This document shows positions 35,384 to 45,843 of a stretch of DNA of 64,000 nucleotides, in pieces (position 1 is the first letter of the stretch; the number at the start of each line of letters is the position of its first letter). Where the stretch lies: the NCBI RefSeq assembly GCF_964355755.1, contig NC_092678.1, forward strand, positions 17,890,922 to 17,954,921. The letters are read 5' to 3'. A program made the position numbers and the translations under genes. This DNA is from Antedon mediterranea (lineage: Eukaryota > Echinodermata > Crinoidea > Comatulida > Antedonidae). Under the pieces are notes generated by a model that had not been told where the DNA came from, searched no databases, and was given only the letters and a program-made list of their open reading frames with translations.

Positions 35384-38300
35384 TCAAACATGTTGTATTT
35401 GTGTGAAATTGTTTAAACTGGATGAAAGATATTGGATGTAGTGTGGTGGTGGCGTAAACATTACTTTTGATTTGCCGTAAGCCTGACAATTATTTAGTCC
35501 TTGTGGTGGATAGACATTTGACACTGGCCAACATGGCATGCCATCCCGAATCAACACATGCACTGGAACTTTCCGAGGTAACATCGGTATTTTCTCAAAC
35601 GATTCTTCTCGTAGAGATTTCTTCAACTTGTAGCGACGATTCTGAAACCAGATTTTCACTTGTGTAGGAGTCAGACGAATGAGATGAGCCAGACGGTGAC
35701 GTTCCAGTGGTGATAAATATTGGTTTTGATGAAAGTGCCTCTCTAGTTCGTAAGTCTGTGCTTTTGTAAAAACTCTTCGTAGTTTTCGTTTTTTCAGTAA
35801 TCTTTCTAATGCTTCGAAATGAGATTTCTTTTCTAAAAAGCGAAACAAATTATTATTGAATTATTATAACATGCAAATTTAAGAATACCATAAATAAGAG
35901 TAAGATTATACTAACAACGAACGAACGATTATTTCTTTATATTTATGTTCGAAAAGAGGTAAAATATCATTTGTGTTGTTTAAAAAGTAAAAATCGAATT
36001 TTTTATTGATAAGGAAAAAAAGCAGAGAGATAATGGAGCGGAATCCCTGAAAATACAATATTGTAAACTTGATTTAGGCCTACTTGTTACATGTTAGGCA
36101 ATCTTGTAATACGGTTATTAATGTGTAGGCCTCTGTATGACTCGATGACTGTATGATTAGAGTAAATTGAGTGAATGAATGTCTGTAATAACGGGTTAGG
36201 TATTAAAGTAAGCAACTGAAGTTATACATAGTTTGATACGACGAAAAACGTTCCCTCATTTTATGAATATTGAAAGAACTACATTCAAAGTTGTAAATCT
36301 TGGTTTATTTCTATAATTTTTACTTGATGGTATATAAAGTTGGTTCCTACTTTCCGTACTGATTTTAACCATCTGATGTAACCCTGTTTACTAATTAAAT
36401 TGAGTTAGGTAATTAGTTATTGACGATTAAAGTGCTAGTGCCACACTTTCGACAAATACGACATTTACTATTATCAGTATCAAGAATAATATATGTAGAT
36501 ACTGTGTTAAATTGAGTTTCAATAATAAAGTGTTATATATATGAAAAAAAAAGCAATATGTGTGTCGTTATTTGGTCACGAAATGTTACCTTTCGACATT
36601 TGTATGTGACGTCACAGCCAGAACACCGACGATCGCGAGGAGGAACTAACCTGCATCTTGCGCCTTATAACACACCCCGCGGCGATCACAACAAGCTTAC
36701 TGAATATTTGTTATGGATTCCGAAAGCGATTTAGAAAGTGTTTCATCAGATAGACCAAGTAGTAGTAGTTCATCATCAAGTGATGAGGAAAATGGTACTG
36801 GCCTTATAATACCATATAATTTCGAACCACGTTTTGAGGAACATGAATTACAAGACATTGATGAAGAAGCCCAAGGTGAAGATGTTGACATGATGGCTGC
36901 ACGCCTGGATAATTTAGAATGGTAGGTGTTCCCCCGTTGTGGTTGTTGTAGTGAAGCGTCTGCTTGATTGGGCTAGGCCTAATTAATCAATCGAAGCTAG
37001 AGCTACCTCAGTGTTTCTAAATTCTAAATATACAATCGGTTTTTTTTTCAAATTTTGTGAGATGCCATACGTTAATATAAAGTCCCCATCGTAATTTGTT
37101 TGATGATTATTATTAGATGGGTCGGATTTGGGACGGTGGTTTAATAATAATAGGCTACTCCTTGCTTGGCTTGGGTTTGGTTATAATAATAGATGGACTA
37201 GGCCTAAAGTATTAATATTAATATTCTGGTCATAGTTCAAATGGGCATTTGAATTTCACTTGATTGAGTGACTGCTGATATGATCAACTAATTATAATCA
37301 TAATAATTAATTTTATAATGACTAAATACATGTTTTCATCTTGTTCAGGTGTTCCTGTGAACATTGCCAAATCATGGGCTCAGGGGAAGAGTGCATCTGC
37401 TGCAAGGAGTGCGAAAACACAAGTGCTAAACTTGAAGACAATGTCAATCTGTTCAACAATGATGCTCCATTCTCCTGCATCACAAATCATCCAGGTTTCA
37501 AGTCTGTTGCTCTTGACCCTTGGGTGCTGGAAGTAGCATGGCTTTCGTATAAGCAACACTATGATAAGAAAGTTATCTATAACGGACCAAAAAACAAAAA
37601 GTACCGTCACATATCGTACAGACAGTATGCCCGATGGATACATGGATATGTCGGAAAAAATATCCGTATAGTGCTTCCGTCTTGTGTTGTCTCTTGCATA
37701 AGAGCACATTTCCCACCACCTGGAGATGACCCAGTGTTTACAGGATTTAAATTACCCGACCTAAATTAAAACAGCCATAGCAGCATTTTAATTTTCTTAT
37801 ACTATTTAGTATTAGTTTAATAATTTTTTGAAATTAAATAAAGTACAGTAATAATTTATACAATTTGCAACTCATTTTGATTTTATTGCTTCTCTCACTC
37901 ATATACATCTCCAATACATTGTTATTGGGGAAAAAATGAAATAGTCTGAAAATACAGTACATTGTGGATATTTCAACAATTTTATTATGTCTACAATAAT
38001 ATGCTGTGTTCAATTCATTTATATGATTAATAAACATGGTGTCAAGTTATTACTGGTTTTTAAACCGGCTTGTATGTTGGGCAACTGCAGCACTTTTTTC
38101 AGGTCTTTCAAATGCTGCGCACAATGATGGTGGTATGGTCTCTGTAAATGCATCTAGATTTGGTTCCATAACAACCTCAAGAAGACTCTTGAACAACTCA
38201 TCAACATAATTATATGTACATTCTGTTAAAAGTTTTTTAACAATGTAACCCCCTTTCTTGTACTTGGGAAATGATATTACGTATTGCTTTTCTCCAGCCT

Positions 38301-41300
38301 TATTTACCATTTGTTCTCTGGTACTGTTCTCATTATAGTGAAGAGCAGCTATGAAAAGTCGACTCTTCATTCCACTATATGAAAAGTGGAACATTTTAGG
38401 AGCAAAATGATTAATAAGGCTATGGTACCCTTCCACTGATGACGTTTGCCCATGAGGTGAAGAATTGCGAATGTCCTTCACCAACATTTTGGTTTCAACA
38501 AATTTTTGTAAGGCATCACAAGCTTCAGTATCAGCAGTCAACCACTTTGTTAACCGTTGGTCTGAAGGAGACATTACCGGATGGGCACATTCCGTATATG
38601 GTTCAGGATGTCCAGTATGAAGATTTTGTACATGTCTTACCACAGACTTCCACTTTGCTTCAATGATATCTTTTTCATCAATGTTGGTGGACATTACACA
38701 CCAGTAATAATGGTTAGAAATAGATTTTTGCCAATTACCTAAAAGGTTACACGATTTTTTTGTTGATATGGCCTGGATCTTTTTCTTAATACTTTTTGCA
38801 ATGTGCCAGCAGTCAAAATAATGCTTAATGTCTGGAAAATTATCCCTTAAATATTTTTGTAGTTGTCTATGTCTATCGGAAACAATTGTACTTATATTTA
38901 CTTTGAAATCTTTAAAGACATCCAATGTTTTTTGTAGACCCTTAAGTTCCATATGATAAGATGATTTAACATCACTACTCTGAACTAATTCAACATTCAA
39001 AATCTTATTTTCGGTCAAGTCAACTGATGTGTATGAACCATATTTTGCACTGTGGCCCATACTGTCACAGCGTCCATCTACGCCAATAGAAATATCCTTG
39101 CCCTGTAATTCAGCAAAGTGCTTATCCCTTTTAGAAAACCAATTATTCCTTACAACTCTGTGCAAGAAATTTTGTTGGTGACGGAAAAAAGTACGTTTAC
39201 TAATGGCGCTCACATTTATACTTTTTAGCGCTCTTAAAAATTGTGTGGGTGTTGAGCCAGAAAAAAGAATAGCCCCACTTAGTAGAATGTTACCCATTGG
39301 GGTACCTCTAGCTTCTGGCTGACTTTTCCACTCGCGGTTAGTGTGGCAACATAAGCATCTTATGTTTGCAATAAGCATGCTTCCCTTGTTACGACAACAT
39401 ACTTGAACTTTACTGGAAAAACAGGAAAGGCATATAGAAAGTAGCATCAGTAGGTGATTGTGAAAAACAATGTATTTTGGCTGTCTATGTGCATCCCCAT
39501 TAAATCCTTTCATCTCATCATCTTCCATCTCTGTATCCTCACCATCTGAAACCGATACATCCTCTTCCGGTCGATAATCTGAATCGCTATCATCTTCTGT
39601 CGACTCATCAAAATCTTCATCATCTTCATCAGACGATTGTTCTTTGTATGTTGGTTTGGCTTTTTTGGGTGCCACGACTTTAGCTTTGCTCATTTTTCGT
39701 CGCCGAACACGTTTTCTTTGCTTTCGTGTCTGTGTGCCTCTGGACACCATAAGAGGCTTATCGCATACACTTGCCAGCTCCTGTTCATCCTCTTCCTCAT
39801 CCTCTGTTCCAGTAATAAGCTCCCTGATCACTCCCGCCTTTTCTCTTTTAACAAATGCTGACCTGTTGGAATGAATATTAATACTATTAATAAATAAATA
39901 TCAGACAAACCTAAACATTTTTTCTTTTATTTATTGAATCTATTACACTAACCTCTGTGCTGTACACTCTTTGGCCACCTGACCACCATCGTCGGATGTC
40001 TCCCTCACAACATGTATTGTTGGTACCGCTGTTTTGGCATTCAGTAAAAGCCTAAAAGTAGTGAGGAAACCGTTGTCTAGTTAATATTAAGGGCAAAATA
40101 ACGTAAGCAATATAATTATAATATAGTTGTTAGTTCCCACTTACACCGACAGGACATTCTCCTACTGAGCATAATAGTGTAGGCATTGACTAACCTCCAT
40201 CATGTTTGTACAGCATTCAGTAGTACTAATTAGGCCTGGCTAGGCTAGCCCTTATCCCATTATTATTAATGTAATAAGCCAAATACATAACAACTAGGTT
40301 AGGCCTAGTTGAGTTATCTGTGTGGTGTAGGCAAAACTGTTACTATTACTTATTAATTATGTTAAGTTTATTTAAAGATAAACCAACATAAAGTAAATAC
40401 TATACATATATATCAGGCGGAGCAACTGTACTCTGTATGTATGTACAGTAGTTTTAATGTTACTGCAAATTATGTGCCGGTGTAAGATTTAAATGTGTCC
40501 GGTGTTTGAAAGTGTCCACTGGACAATTTTCAGCATTGAATAGTGTAATACCAGCTGTTGAAAATGGCTGCAACCACCCGGGCAGCTTTCATCGATAAAA
40601 AAAGTAGGACCATCGACATCGACATCATAATATTAACCCCGTAAAAACTAGGGCACTGGACGGTCACCAACTCCCGTTAGGGTAATTATAATTCCTTAGA
40701 ATACCAACTTGAATCGCAAAATATCAAGTCGATTGAAATAAATATTACTATTATTATATCTGGAGACATATAGTCTAATCAAATTAAATTGTTTGTTTTT
40801 GATTGAGTATATACAACCTGTTGTCAATTTGAAGTAAATCGACAACTTGAAAAAATATATGGCCTACCGGTACTGTATTATTATTTCTAGGGAATGAATA
40901 TCACTAAATCATATAGGCATAGGGCCTACCTATTTTCGTTCTCTCGAAATATTATTTCATTGGAATTCGAATTACTAATTCGCGAGAGAACGAAATAATT
41001 TCCCTCGAAATTATTTCGTTCTCTCGATCATTCCTTGTCTCGAAGTAGTAATTCGTTTTTTATATTGTTCAGTTCTTGAAATCTTATTTTGTTCTCCCTA
41101 AATATATTTGTTCCCTCAAAATATTTTTCAGTTCTCAAAATATTATTTTGTAATATTCATAATACTGTTACTAATTTAATAATATTAACTGATAACAAAA
41201 GTGCTTTAAACAAGTAAGTTCGTCATTGTTAAAGTGAGTTCTTTTTCATTATATTTTTTTTCACAGATGCCTGATTTTTGGTTTTATTTAATAAAACATT

Positions 41301-44300
41301 GAATTGGTTAGTCACAATATTTTTTTTGTTTCTAGAGATTTTACATTATTTATTTATTTATCTAAAATACATTTGAAAAATATTGTTGATGCATATTACC
41401 AAAAAATATTTATTTTTTTATATTTTATATGGCAAAATAAACACCTTAATTGCGCATCATAATTATTCGTTCACTCAAGGGTATTTCGGTTTTTTGTATT
41501 TTTTGAATAATCTCTAAAAAAAAAACGTCCACCTCTCCTAAGGGACCACTTCTCATAATTCCGTAACGACCACCTTTCGCAAATTACCACCTCTATTGAG
41601 GTGGTCACTTACGGGAGGTGTAGTAGGTAAAAGAAGTGGTCGTCTACGAGCGGTGGTAGTTTATGAAAGCAGTCCGTTATGAGAGGTGGTTACCCCTTCA
41701 GGAGGTTGTCCATTGTGAGAAGCGGTCCTTTAACAGAGGTAGTCCCTTTTAAATATTAAAGGTGGTCGCTAACAAGGGTGGTTGCTTACGATCAGAGTGC
41801 TAAGTTTTGAAAGCCGATCACTTACGAGAGGTGGATAGACTGACGGCAAGTAGAGAAATACATTTGCACATGATTTAGACATTTAGGTTTGTAAAATATA
41901 TAATATTTTATTAGCTGGCGATATTAACTACATTAGCTGTGAGGCAATTTTCGTTACTACATTACCTGTTGAGTTGTACATGAGTATAATGTTGATTTTT
42001 ATTTGATAAATAAGCTGTTGGTGTTTCTACATCATTAGCTAGTTCTAGGTTTTATTATATGGGTGGATTTGACTTTTCTACACTAGCAGTTTTGAACAGG
42101 GCCTACTGTGTTTAAATGGAATGCTACAAGTTGTATTATATTTTTTTATTTATCGTTTTGTGTACTAAAGTGGCAGCATAATCAGTATTTATTTTTACCA
42201 GATGTCCAACAAGGGTAATGTCCCAATTGGTAATTGCCACAATTGTCAGGTCAACCTCAAAACAGCGGCTCTCGGGACCGGGAGAGTTGTATGATTTGTT
42301 TTTATTTTTTTTTTTTTTTGAATGCGCCTTGAGCACTCTGTGGTATGTGCGCTATAAAAATCCTGTTATTATTATTTGTTATTATTATTTCACCTTTTAG
42401 TCGTGTCTGTCTTACAGTAAAGTGATCTTTAATTGGAAGAGGACCAGTACAATTACTTGTTTTTAATCACATGATTATAAACTATTTATTCCTCTTGTCT
42501 GTGCTCGTACAAAATAATAAAACGGTCGCTAATTGGAAGTGTCTTAAAGTAAAGTGATCTTTAATTGGAAGAGGACCAGTACAATTACTTGTTTTTTATC
42601 ACATGATTATAAACTATTTATTCCTCTTGTCTGTACTCATACAAAATAATAAAACGGTCGCTAAATGGAAGTGTTTAAATTGAAGTGATCTTTAATTGGA
42701 AGAGGACCAGTACAATTACTTGTTTTTTATCACATGATTATAAACTATTTCTTCTTCTTGTCTTTATTCATACAAAATAATATAACGGTCGCTAATTAGA
42801 GGTGTCTTAAAGTAAAGTGACCTTTAATTGGAAGCGGACCAGTACATTTACTTAATTTTGTCACATAATTAAACTATTAATTATTCTTACCTTTACTCAT
42901 ACCAATTAATAAAAATGGTCGCTAATTAGAGGTGTCTTAAAGTAAAGTGATCTTTAATTGGAAGCGGACCAGTACAGTTACTTAATTTTGTCACATAATT
43001 AAAACTATTAATTATTATTGTCTTTACTCATACCAATTAATAAAATGGTCGCTAATTGGAGGTGTTTTAAGTAAAGTGGTCCTTTATTGAAAGAGGTCCA
43101 GTACAATTACTTGTTTTTTGTCACATAATTAATAACTATTATTATATTCTTCTTGCTTTATTAATACTAAATAATATAATGGTCGCTAATTGGAGGTGTT
43201 TTAGGTAAAGTGATTTTTAATTGGAAGAGGAACACTTCATTTACTTGTTTTTGTCACATACTTAACAATTATTTATTCTTCTTGTCTTTTCACATACCAT
43301 ATAATATAATGGTCCCTAATTGGAGGTGTTTAGGCAAAGCGATCTTTATTTAGAAAAAAAAAATTTGTTTGGCATCATTAAGTATTATTGGTTATTAAAA
43401 AAAGACAAGACAAGTGCAGGCGTGGTAAAAACAACCACCTATCATAAAACGTATGATACAGTATTTAATAGTGGACGCATTTCAATCCATGGGTCAGACA
43501 TTATTAAACGGGCCGGACAGCATTAAATTGTTGAAAAACGCCCACGAACCCGTTGAAACATGCAACTGGACACTATCCAATGCTGAAAAGTGTCCACCCG
43601 GACACTTTTGAATGCTGGACACAATTCAATCTTACACCGGCGCGCCTAGAAGCTAGGCTTGGCCCAGCGGGCCCAGCAGGCCTAACAATAGCGACGGCGA
43701 ACGTATTTTATGCAGTTTTTGTTGAAGGTAAAATATTAAAAGTAAATTCATCTAATTAACAAATACTTACTTTGTAGCTAGACCAGCTTTGAATTGACCC
43801 ATGTTTGTAAATGAATCGTCTGAAAAATGCTTAAAACAGAGCACTGATCGAGCTGTGGGTTTCCATTTATCGCGTTTTGTACGTACAAATCGCGTCCATT
43901 GCCTGGCGATGGAACTGTCCTTTGGCCACCGAAACAATAAGTTATTTTCATGATCACAATTCGCAGCAACACAGCGAGAAGGCATATTGATTTATTATAA
44001 TAGATAAATAAAAAAGTAGCTGACAATAATAATAGTTGAAAATAACAATTAGTACCAGTAGAAAGCAGTATACAGTATATATTATTAGTAGTAAACCAGC
44101 GTCTCATGCATGCACGTGTGTTGTTTTAAAAGGCGGAAGTAGAATGTCTTCTGCCTGTGACGTCACGCTTATAAAGTACGAGGGCATATTAACGTTCCTA
44201 ATTAAGAGGCGATTACGGCCATACCGTTAAAAGTAGGTCAATGCAAATTTCGGTCAAGATTTATAGACATTAAGTCTACCCAAAAAATCATTAATATCTT

Positions 44301-45843
44301 AATTTAAAGGCTGTGGCACTAGCACTTTAAAACGAATTTAGGTTCAACGATTTGCCCCAAATAGGGGTGTTTTCCGATCGTGGTATACACTGTCTAATGG
44401 ATGTCCATCTTGAAAAATACCCGCCACAAAAATACGAGGAGGCTTCGCATTTTCCTATCTCCTTCTACGATAATTGTTTTTAATAGCTGAAAACCGGTTG
44501 AACAGCTAGAGTACAGCATCATAATGTTGAAGACAGGCCTACTTTCTTCAAAAATACTATTTTGATATATTTAATATACGATTATACAAATGTATTGATT
44601 TGCGATGAATGGAACATTCCAATCTCTGTTTCACAAGTGTCTATTCCCTCAGGCGTCGTAAAGGCAAGTACAGTACTGTATACTCAAAATTCGATCCATT
44701 TTTGTTTTCAATCTGTGCTGCAGAGGTTGGATATAATTTTTTTTTAAACGGATAATGAGCTAGCGTTTTCACTCGCCGTATATTATGTACAAATCTTTAT
44801 TATTGCAGTTAAACCACCCACATCATCACCTTTCCCTCACTGGCATGAGTAGCGTTGTAAAACCAGTAGAGAATAGGCCTACGGTACATCACATGCCCTA
44901 AACGCAGAACAACTTTGGTGGGTAGGGTAGAAACCAACTTAAGTATGAATTGGCTCTAAGAAACAATTGAAAACCATTAGGCCTACTAATTAAGTTGAGT
45001 TAGATAATTTAATATTTATTGACGATTAAATCGAATTTATGGTTTTACATTGTATTATAAACATATACACGTCGTAGTGATGTATCGTTACATGTGCTGT
45101 ACTATTTCAATCGACTAGGACGGTGATAGCTTCAACAAAGTATTACATCGCAATGTTTTACTGTGTTTAGTGGTATATTATTTGTAAAACATGAAAGCAA
45201 TTAATATTTCGTTACTAAATGGATAAAGAATAATATTTTAACATTGTTCCTCTTTGCACCCATCCTCTTCCCCATCTCAACCCTAATGTTACATACAAAA
45301 CACAAATTAAGTTTGTTTAAATTTGACTTAAACAATTGGTCTTATAGGGTGCTAATTTTAGTTGAGTACATAAATCACAGTGTCTATTTATTCGTTCCTG
45401 TAAACGACATGTATTATTGTCCTGCGGTACGTACATTTGAAATCGCCAGTTTTTTAACGCTGAAATTATTATGTATTCGAGAACCATCTGTGGGCACGAC
45501 CTAGATGGTACGCGAGCGAAGCGAGCGTACCATCTAGTTTTAAAAATTCATGGCAGTTGTAATGGTTGAATTAAACCATAGTCAATATAGGCCTATACTT
45601 TCAAAATCTTCAGCGTTGGTGCAAAATTAATTAATTATGGATTATTTTTAATTTCCTAATTGAATTTTGTGCTTTAACGGATGTACTATCCGAAATAAAA
45701 GAAAGGAATGAATTAATTTATATAATTAGAAGTATCTTACCGTTAACCGGCGCACCAGCACTAACAACATTCGCCGCCGAAGCGCTCTCAGGTTCTCCGA
45801 TGATATCATTGATAGAAAAGCCGATTGACTGTTTCGTCATCAT
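35384..45843 (-). CDS. NK2-class homeobox transcription factor, Nkx2.2-like, complete
   Basis: Two exons: 45843-45741 and 35832-35384, phase 1, GTAAGA donor and TTTTTAG acceptor, total 183 aa. Exon 1 encodes the N-terminal TN (tinman/EH1-like, Groucho-binding) motif as [12 protein letters not shown]. Exon 2 encodes a homeodomain at about residues 48-107 with the NK2 hallmark Tyr54 (WFQNRRYK) and the Nkx2.2-like stretches [10 protein letters not shown] and [13 protein letters not shown]. The NK2-specific domain ([18 protein letters not shown]) follows at about 120-137. Family role: DNA-binding regulator in the nucleus, usually in neural, endodermal or mesodermal patterning. It is much shorter than vertebrate NK2 proteins (about 270 aa), with no poly-Ala or long linker. 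Residue 52 is Arg, as in Nkx2.5, not His as in Nkx2.1/2.2. The intron of 9.9 kb is four-fifths transposon (36427-44330). Start at 45843; a second ATG follows at once. Confidence 0.9.
36431..36445 (+). repeat. Left terminal inverted repeat of Kolobok-type element
   Basis: AGTGCTAGTGCCACA directly after TTAA; exact reverse complement of 44312-44326. Confidence 0.92.
36606..36623 (+). promoter_or_regulatory. Subterminal motif with CRE palindrome, left copy
   Basis: GTGACGTCACAGCCAGAA contains TGACGTCA, the full CREB/ATF site. It lies 90 bp upstream of the P2X7-ballast start codon, with a ttataa box at 36664-36669 between. The same 18-mer with one change occurs in inverse orientation at 44149-44166. 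It may be a promoter element, a transposase binding site, or both. Confidence 0.65.
36713..37769 (+). CDS. Stand-alone P2X7 C-terminal (ballast) domain protein, transposon cargo
   Basis: Two exons, 36713-36921 and 37349-37769, phase 2, total 209 aa. Residues 1-69 are acidic, with a poly-Ser run near 16-24. From residue 70 comes [18 protein letters not shown], then [38 protein letters not shown] and TGFKLPDLN. These are the cysteine cluster, Y-R-x-Y-A-x-W and LPSC-x4-IR-x2-FP signatures of the P2X7 intracellular C-terminal domain, which in the receptor binds zinc and guanine nucleotide. There is no P2X channel part: no transmembrane segment and no room for one. The gene lies fully inside the TTAA element and converges on the transposase gene. 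Function within the transposon is unknown; DNA, RNA or protein binding by the Zn-cysteine fold is only inference. Confidence 0.88.
37837..37842 (+). terminator. Polyadenylation signal of the P2X7-ballast gene
   Basis: AATAAA lies 68 bases past the stop. The opposite-strand hexamer for the transposase gene (TTTATT on plus) occurs at about 37879 and 37979, so the two 3' UTRs may overlap. Confidence 0.5.
38050..43985 (-). CDS. THAP-domain DDE transposase, Kolobok type, complete
   Basis: Three exons on minus: 43985-43771, 40051-39953 and 39862-38050; all phase 2, GT/AG, 708 aa. Exons 1-2 encode a C2CH THAP zinc finger ([29 protein letters not shown], and AVPTI just after the first junction), a sequence-specific DNA-binding domain. 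A basic then acidic linker follows (about 130-225). The catalytic part has GVDGRCDS (Asp about 365), IVSDRHRQL (Asp about 432), [11 protein letters not shown], and SSVEGYHSL (Glu about 580), consistent with an RNase H-like DDE core. Cysteine pairs (CLSCF, CCRNK, CLCC) near 250-275 suggest an extra zinc module. It would bind the element ends and cut at TTAA. No stop or frameshift was seen, so it is potentially active. Intron 1 (3.7 kb) contains the nested element 40477-43641. Superfamily assignment rests on THAP plus TTAA. Confidence 0.88.
40477..43641. mobile_element. Nested inverted-repeat element in transposase intron 1
   Basis: The ends are about 65-bp imperfect inverted repeats starting gccggtgtaagatt, with aaagtgtcc and cagcattg words (40477-40550 versus 43566-43641). 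No clear target duplication was found. The interior holds a hairpin-rich stretch of cgttctctcgaaat words (40930-41100), a decayed GGTGGTC repeat (41525-41850) and the satellite at 42411. There is no coding region, so it is non-autonomous. It is likely spliced out and so tolerated by the transposase gene. Confidence 0.65.
42411..43375. repeat. Satellite of about eight units of 120-125 bp
   Basis: Units read taaagtgatctttaattgga, agaggaccagtacaattact, tttttatcacatgattataa and aataaaacggtcgctaattg. Divergence grows toward the right end. It lies within the nested element, and its GGTCGCTAATTGGAGGTG words resemble the degraded repeat at 41525-41850, suggesting an older, longer array. Confidence 0.8.
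44149..44166 (-). promoter_or_regulatory. Subterminal motif with CRE palindrome, right copy
   Basis: Minus-strand GTGACGTCACAGGCAGAA, 17 of 18 identical to 36606-36623, lies 163 bp upstream of the transposase start codon and 160 bp from the right end. A ttataa box is adjacent (44169-44174). Confidence 0.65.
44312..44326 (-). repeat. Right terminal inverted repeat of Kolobok-type element
   Basis: TGTGGCACTAGCACT followed by TTAA; exact inverse of 36431-36445. Confidence 0.92.
44985..45050. other. Paralogous empty site of the Kolobok-type insertion
   Basis: actaattaagttgagttaga, then tattgacga, one TTAA, then tcgaatttat-ggtt matches the element's left flank (36390-36430) joined to its right flank (44331-44345) with a single TTAA. 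So the host carried this sequence twice, and one copy took the insertion. Confidence 0.7.

Follow-up and report, generated by a model that had tools for sequence, protein, structure and literature searches.

A young, probable Kol0-lineage Kolobok transposon with a KolX (P2X7-ballast) gene in the genome of Antedon mediterranea

In this study, we characterized a transposon at positions 36427-44330 of a 64,000-nucleotide stretch of the Antedon mediterranea genome (the window, whose numbering is used throughout for this locus). As an earlier note on this DNA had described, the element is delimited by TTAA target duplications and exact 15-bp inverted ends; the two arms agree exactly across 19 nt, made up of TTAA and the 15-bp AGTGCTAGTGCCACA, and the termini read AG...CT, the RR/YY form. 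Between the ends lie two open genes in convergent (tail-to-tail) orientation, a plus-strand gene for a P2X7-type ballast domain, termed KolX below, and a minus-strand gene for a transposase (Table 1). The splice structures of both are predicted from sequence; every intron has GT-AG borders and neither reading frame is interrupted, and the description of two intact, spliced genes stands, with splicing as a prediction. A homeodomain exon (Pfam 3.6e-20) is found at 35384-35860 on the minus strand, at a distance of approximately 0.6 kb from the transposon's left end.

Table 1. Features of the transposon, in window coordinates.
Feature	Position	Strand	Basis or context
Left end: TTAA target duplication (36427-36430) and 15-bp terminal inverted repeat AGTGCTAGTGCCACA	36427..36445	+	end comparison
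KolX (P2X7-ballast) exon 1, with GT donor; sequence shared at 100% identity with three other copies	36713..36921	+	predicted
KolX exon 2, with seven zinc-type cysteines and stop	37349..37769	+	predicted gene model, Pfam
Transposase exon 3: DDE core (C/DxxH motif, VEGYH) and zinc-finger-like H..H..CxH stretch	39862-38050	-	predicted
Transposase exon 2	40051-39953	-	predicted
Nested non-coding repeat (40481-43636) with CCGG duplications and ~131-bp internal tandem repeats	40477..43640	.	transposase intron 1
Transposase exon 1: THAP zinc-finger domain	43985-43771	-	predicted; Pfam
Right terminal inverted repeat and TTAA target duplication (44327-44330)	44312..44330	-	end comparison

The predicted KolX protein is 209 aa long and matches Pfam P2RX7_C at 3.7e-16 (60 bits, cut-off 23.5) across most of the domain, while a P2X domain is absent from it by Pfam. 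Its zinc-type cysteines (C71, C73, C76, C87, C88, C113 and C182) align in order with the seven zinc cysteines of P2X7, together with an RH..YR..W..PSC..IR..FP..GF pattern, and the solved structures closest to it by sequence are P2X7 chains (rat 6u9v, phmmer E 6.4e-5). Equivalents of R546, H547 and R578, three of the five GDP-contact residues of the rat P2X7 ballast, are present. The AlphaFold2 model of KolX alone has a pLDDT of 36. The transposase, predicted at 708 aa from three exons with an open frame, has a THAP domain at its N-terminus (Pfam 5.4e-10) and carries the DDE motifs GVDGRCDS (from 365), SDRH (within 431-438) and VEGYH (from 581). The C/DxxH signature between the second D and the E is present as DCWH (455-458) and is conserved between families, and the zinc-finger-like H..H...CxH stretch that lies between C/DxxH and the E is conserved, as judged by eye, in families F1, FD, FE, FG and FH. 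A THAP domain is also encoded on the opposite strand in four other KolX families.

The earlier note had taken the full 7.9 kb as the element. Its coordinates and anatomy hold but the length does not: a CCGG-flanked repeat of 3,160 bp in the first transposase intron is a later insertion, outside the Kolobok element proper, since other copies that align with the window at 98-100% lack 40481-43636 and CCGG is duplicated at the junction. The native element is accordingly 4,744 bp long. Inverted ends of the TGTAAGATT... type and about seven internal tandem units characterize the nested repeat, and a search with its first 180 bp gave at least 40 genomic matches, at 92-98% identity.

A search of the whole genome (354 Mb in 18 contigs) found 20 occurrences of the 19-base end and none of its reversed control. 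Nine complete left-right pairs were recovered, namely the window copy and those at C7:14.30, C5:10.97, C11:18.68, C5:21.50, C4:17.42, C4:19.09, C4:19.35 and C1:31.17-31.19 Mb; all nine have TTAA duplications, with flanks that differ for most, and all nine contain both KolX and the transposase, full-length copies without the ballast gene being absent from the set. KolX is intact in eight of them, the transposase in six, and both genes in five (window, C7, C5:10.97, C11 and C1, the last with an 18-kb insertion between KolX and the transposase). Three copies keep an intact KolX beside a broken transposase (C4:17.4, 19.09 and 19.35 Mb), and in the C5:21.5 copy KolX is lost beside an intact transposase. 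Four copies (window, C7, C5:10.97 and C11) are almost identical to one another, which points to recent movement, and the nested insertion is missing from copies otherwise 99.9-100% identical to that of the window. The family further comprises a short, 427-bp deletion derivative (C5:884697-885123) and two older, degraded copies. Flanks are shared crosswise among the C4 copies at 17.42 (L058), 19.35 (L060) and 19.09 Mb (L061), the left flank of L058 being that of L061 and its right flank that of L060, an arrangement that fits segmental duplication together with an inversion caused by recombination between two copies in opposite orientation. On the strength of these shared flanks, the three probably descend from one insertion by duplication and are treated below as one event.

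Across the genome, Pfam P2RX7_C gave 70 matches; this and the other ballast counts are lower bounds, drawn from the best-scoring candidates and the subset of loci that was read. Thirty-nine of the matches have a Kolobok transposase match, obtained with two transposase queries, no more than 8 kb away, against a random expectation of approximately 0.3% per match, and 37 of these 39 pairs are convergent. Another 14 belong, or probably belong, to FB, a Kolobok family whose exact TTAA ends are its own and span 3,118 bp; we regard it as non-autonomous because it has a transposase tail and a dead KolX. Early stops within KolX are common to every FB copy that can be read clearly, and selection on KolX was rejected for this family on that ground; KolX can therefore be dead weight in copies mobilized in trans. 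FB is a composite form with KolX exon-1-like sequence, inverted, at both ends, and one of its copies (L016/L067, C1:7266404-7273900) lies within the integrase region of a gypsy-like LTR retrotransposon. In each of families FD, FH and FY, distinct TTAA ends are present and the opposite strand encodes a THAP domain. Approximately 17 matches are neither near a transposase match nor in a family whose ends were seen; one of these, C6:14546611, an example of a further set that lacks a transposase match, proved on reading to have, like that set, a THAP domain on the opposite strand and imperfect TTAA ends. Most ballast matches in this genome thus occur in a Kolobok context, as the earlier note had anticipated, and not outside one.

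Considered as a whole, the feature is best explained as a young, recently mobile member of the KolX-encoding Kol0 group of Kolobok DNA transposons, a reading to which we give a probability of roughly 0.93. That it belongs to the Kolobok superfamily and, within it, to the Kol0 lineage is close to certain: TTAA, RR/YY ends, a DDE transposase with C/DxxH, the zinc finger and KolX are all present, in agreement with the Kolobok identity proposed before. According to Kojima and Bao 2022 (PMC9587614), elements of the Kol0 lineage encode KolX in addition to a DDE transposase. From the same paper come the use of RR/YY termini to tell Kolobok from piggyBac and the placement of the Kolobok zinc finger between C/DxxH and E, with a C in third position and absence only from Kolobok1; THAP as a mark of Kol0 is taken from the earlier note and is not named there. 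Compared by published description, the element shares TTAA, RR/YY ends, a C/DxxH DDE core and a KolX with P2X7-ballast homology with the Kol0 lineage (type member Kolobok-1_XT; Kapitonov and Jurka), and the differences seen are those of sequence and host genome only. KolobokP, in contrast, has long terminal direct repeats and a His-Me nuclease, whereas the element has no terminal direct repeats and Pfam found no His-Me nuclease domain in it. The TTAA target site is shared with piggyBac, from which the element differs in its THAP-DDE transposase with DxxH and in ends that begin with AG; a few piggyBac families carry a KolX-like C-terminal part (PMC9587614).

In the earlier note, stand-alone ballast proteins were proposed to be transposon cargo. 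The data from this genome agree with their being transposon-encoded, but 'cargo' is a misnomer: KolX belongs to the standard make-up of Kol0 as an accessory gene and accompanies the transposase in many families. That the stand-alone ballast proteins described by Rump et al. 2020 (PMC7016195) are parts of Kolobok elements had previously gone unrecognized, and nanor is likely a domesticated KolX (PMC9587614). Like KolX here, nanor and other stand-alone ballast proteins (ZCD, PTHR36981) consist of the domain alone with a short variable N-terminus; unlike nanor, the gene described here still lies within a mobile element. Our data, from a single animal genome assembled to chromosome scale, independently confirm the ballast domain as a standard partner gene of Kolobok transposons.

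Two other origins for the ballast gene have to be weighed. KolX might resemble P2X7 through convergence on zinc-binding cysteines rather than through homology, and its identity to rat P2X7 is indeed low, with a phmmer E-value that is modest. A Pfam match that spans most of the domain and an extended motif pattern in matching order along with the seven cysteines are difficult to reconcile with convergence, and Kojima and Bao had arrived at the same homology (PMC9587614); we consider this explanation scarcely credible, and the identification of the gene with the C-terminal cysteine-rich domain of P2X7 in the earlier note was sound. Alternatively, the gene could be an ordinary host gene captured once, recently, as a passenger. 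Stand-alone ballast proteins have been described across animals with no mention of transposons, and ancestral synteny has been reported for them (PMC7016195). Yet KolX has the same convergent placement in several diverged families of this single genome and is encoded by the Kol0 lineage in other phyla as well (PMC9587614), and KolX divergence tracks that of the transposase. In a rough test with alignments anchored on the window proteins, KolX and transposase identities between families were correlated at a Mantel r of 0.69 for five families (p 2/120 permutations) and 0.87 after the addition of FB; with seven families, including two represented by short transposase fragments, r was 0.34 (p 0.025, 125 of 5,040), the KolX proteins of these families being 23-51% identical. 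This congruence, for which the earlier note had asked, supports long co-inheritance of KolX and the transposase, as judged from their sequences, and argues against a single recent capture, which we regard as very improbable.

For a Kol0 element of this kind, the THAP-DDE transposase would recognize the inverted ends, excise the element and insert it at TTAA; both the cut-and-paste chemistry and THAP binding to the ends are assumed here by analogy with known families. KolX, as a stand-alone zinc-binding ballast, would most likely be an accessory factor in the same reaction. We found no experiment on KolX function in the literature, and we infer, at about even odds, that it may be a positive cofactor of transposition. 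The THAP-containing P-element transposase uses GTP. Given this, the binding of GDP by the rat P2X7 ballast and the retention of three of five contact residues, one guess is that KolX could exert guanine nucleotide-dependent control over transpososome assembly. A different possibility is that KolX regulates or represses transposition, or protects the element or the host. The three C4 copies in which KolX has outlived the transposase would suit such a role, but they count as a single event, and KolX has equally been lost beside an intact transposase at C5:21.5 and in FB; we therefore think a regulatory or protective role unlikely. With several nearly identical copies in which both genes are intact, the window family is a good candidate for testing the role of KolX.

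Kojima and Bao showed that KolX is homologous to the cytoplasmic ballast of P2X7, and they concluded that P2X7 originated when a P2X4-like gene was fused with KolX (PMC9587614). The link between KolX and P2X7, the central inference of the earlier note, was thus already published in 2022 and is not new; among the papers searched, none besides that of Kojima and Bao 2022 addressed a Kolobok-P2X7 link. The vertebrate P2X7 C-terminal ballast (P2RX7_C, PF20478; PDB 6u9v) shares the zinc cysteines and the RH/Y/W/PSC/IR/FP pattern with KolX, but it is fused to a P2X channel, whereas the KolX described here is stand-alone and transposon-encoded. No P2X7-type gene was found in this genome, its two P2X loci (C3:4.20 and 6.68-6.72 Mb) being far from any ballast match. 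At the level of sequence, our data agree with a transposon origin of the P2X7 tail, and they support the published proposal that a mobile element supplied the tail of this important immune receptor. In a tree of eleven KolX families and two P2X7 sequences, which with its 141 columns, long branches and lack of a root is to be read as a lead only, P2X7 joins FH, FA and FI (85/83 support), with FA, FI and P2X7 grouped at 81/77, and the window family is placed elsewhere. It is possible, though we hold this tentatively and on balance doubt it, that the P2X7 tail derives from one KolX sub-lineage with a PSCCxWxIR motif, kept by FA, FI and FH, and not from the KolX of the window. The motif, otherwise typical of vertebrate P2X7, is carried by the KolX of FA, FI and FH at loci L001, L009 and L012, respectively.
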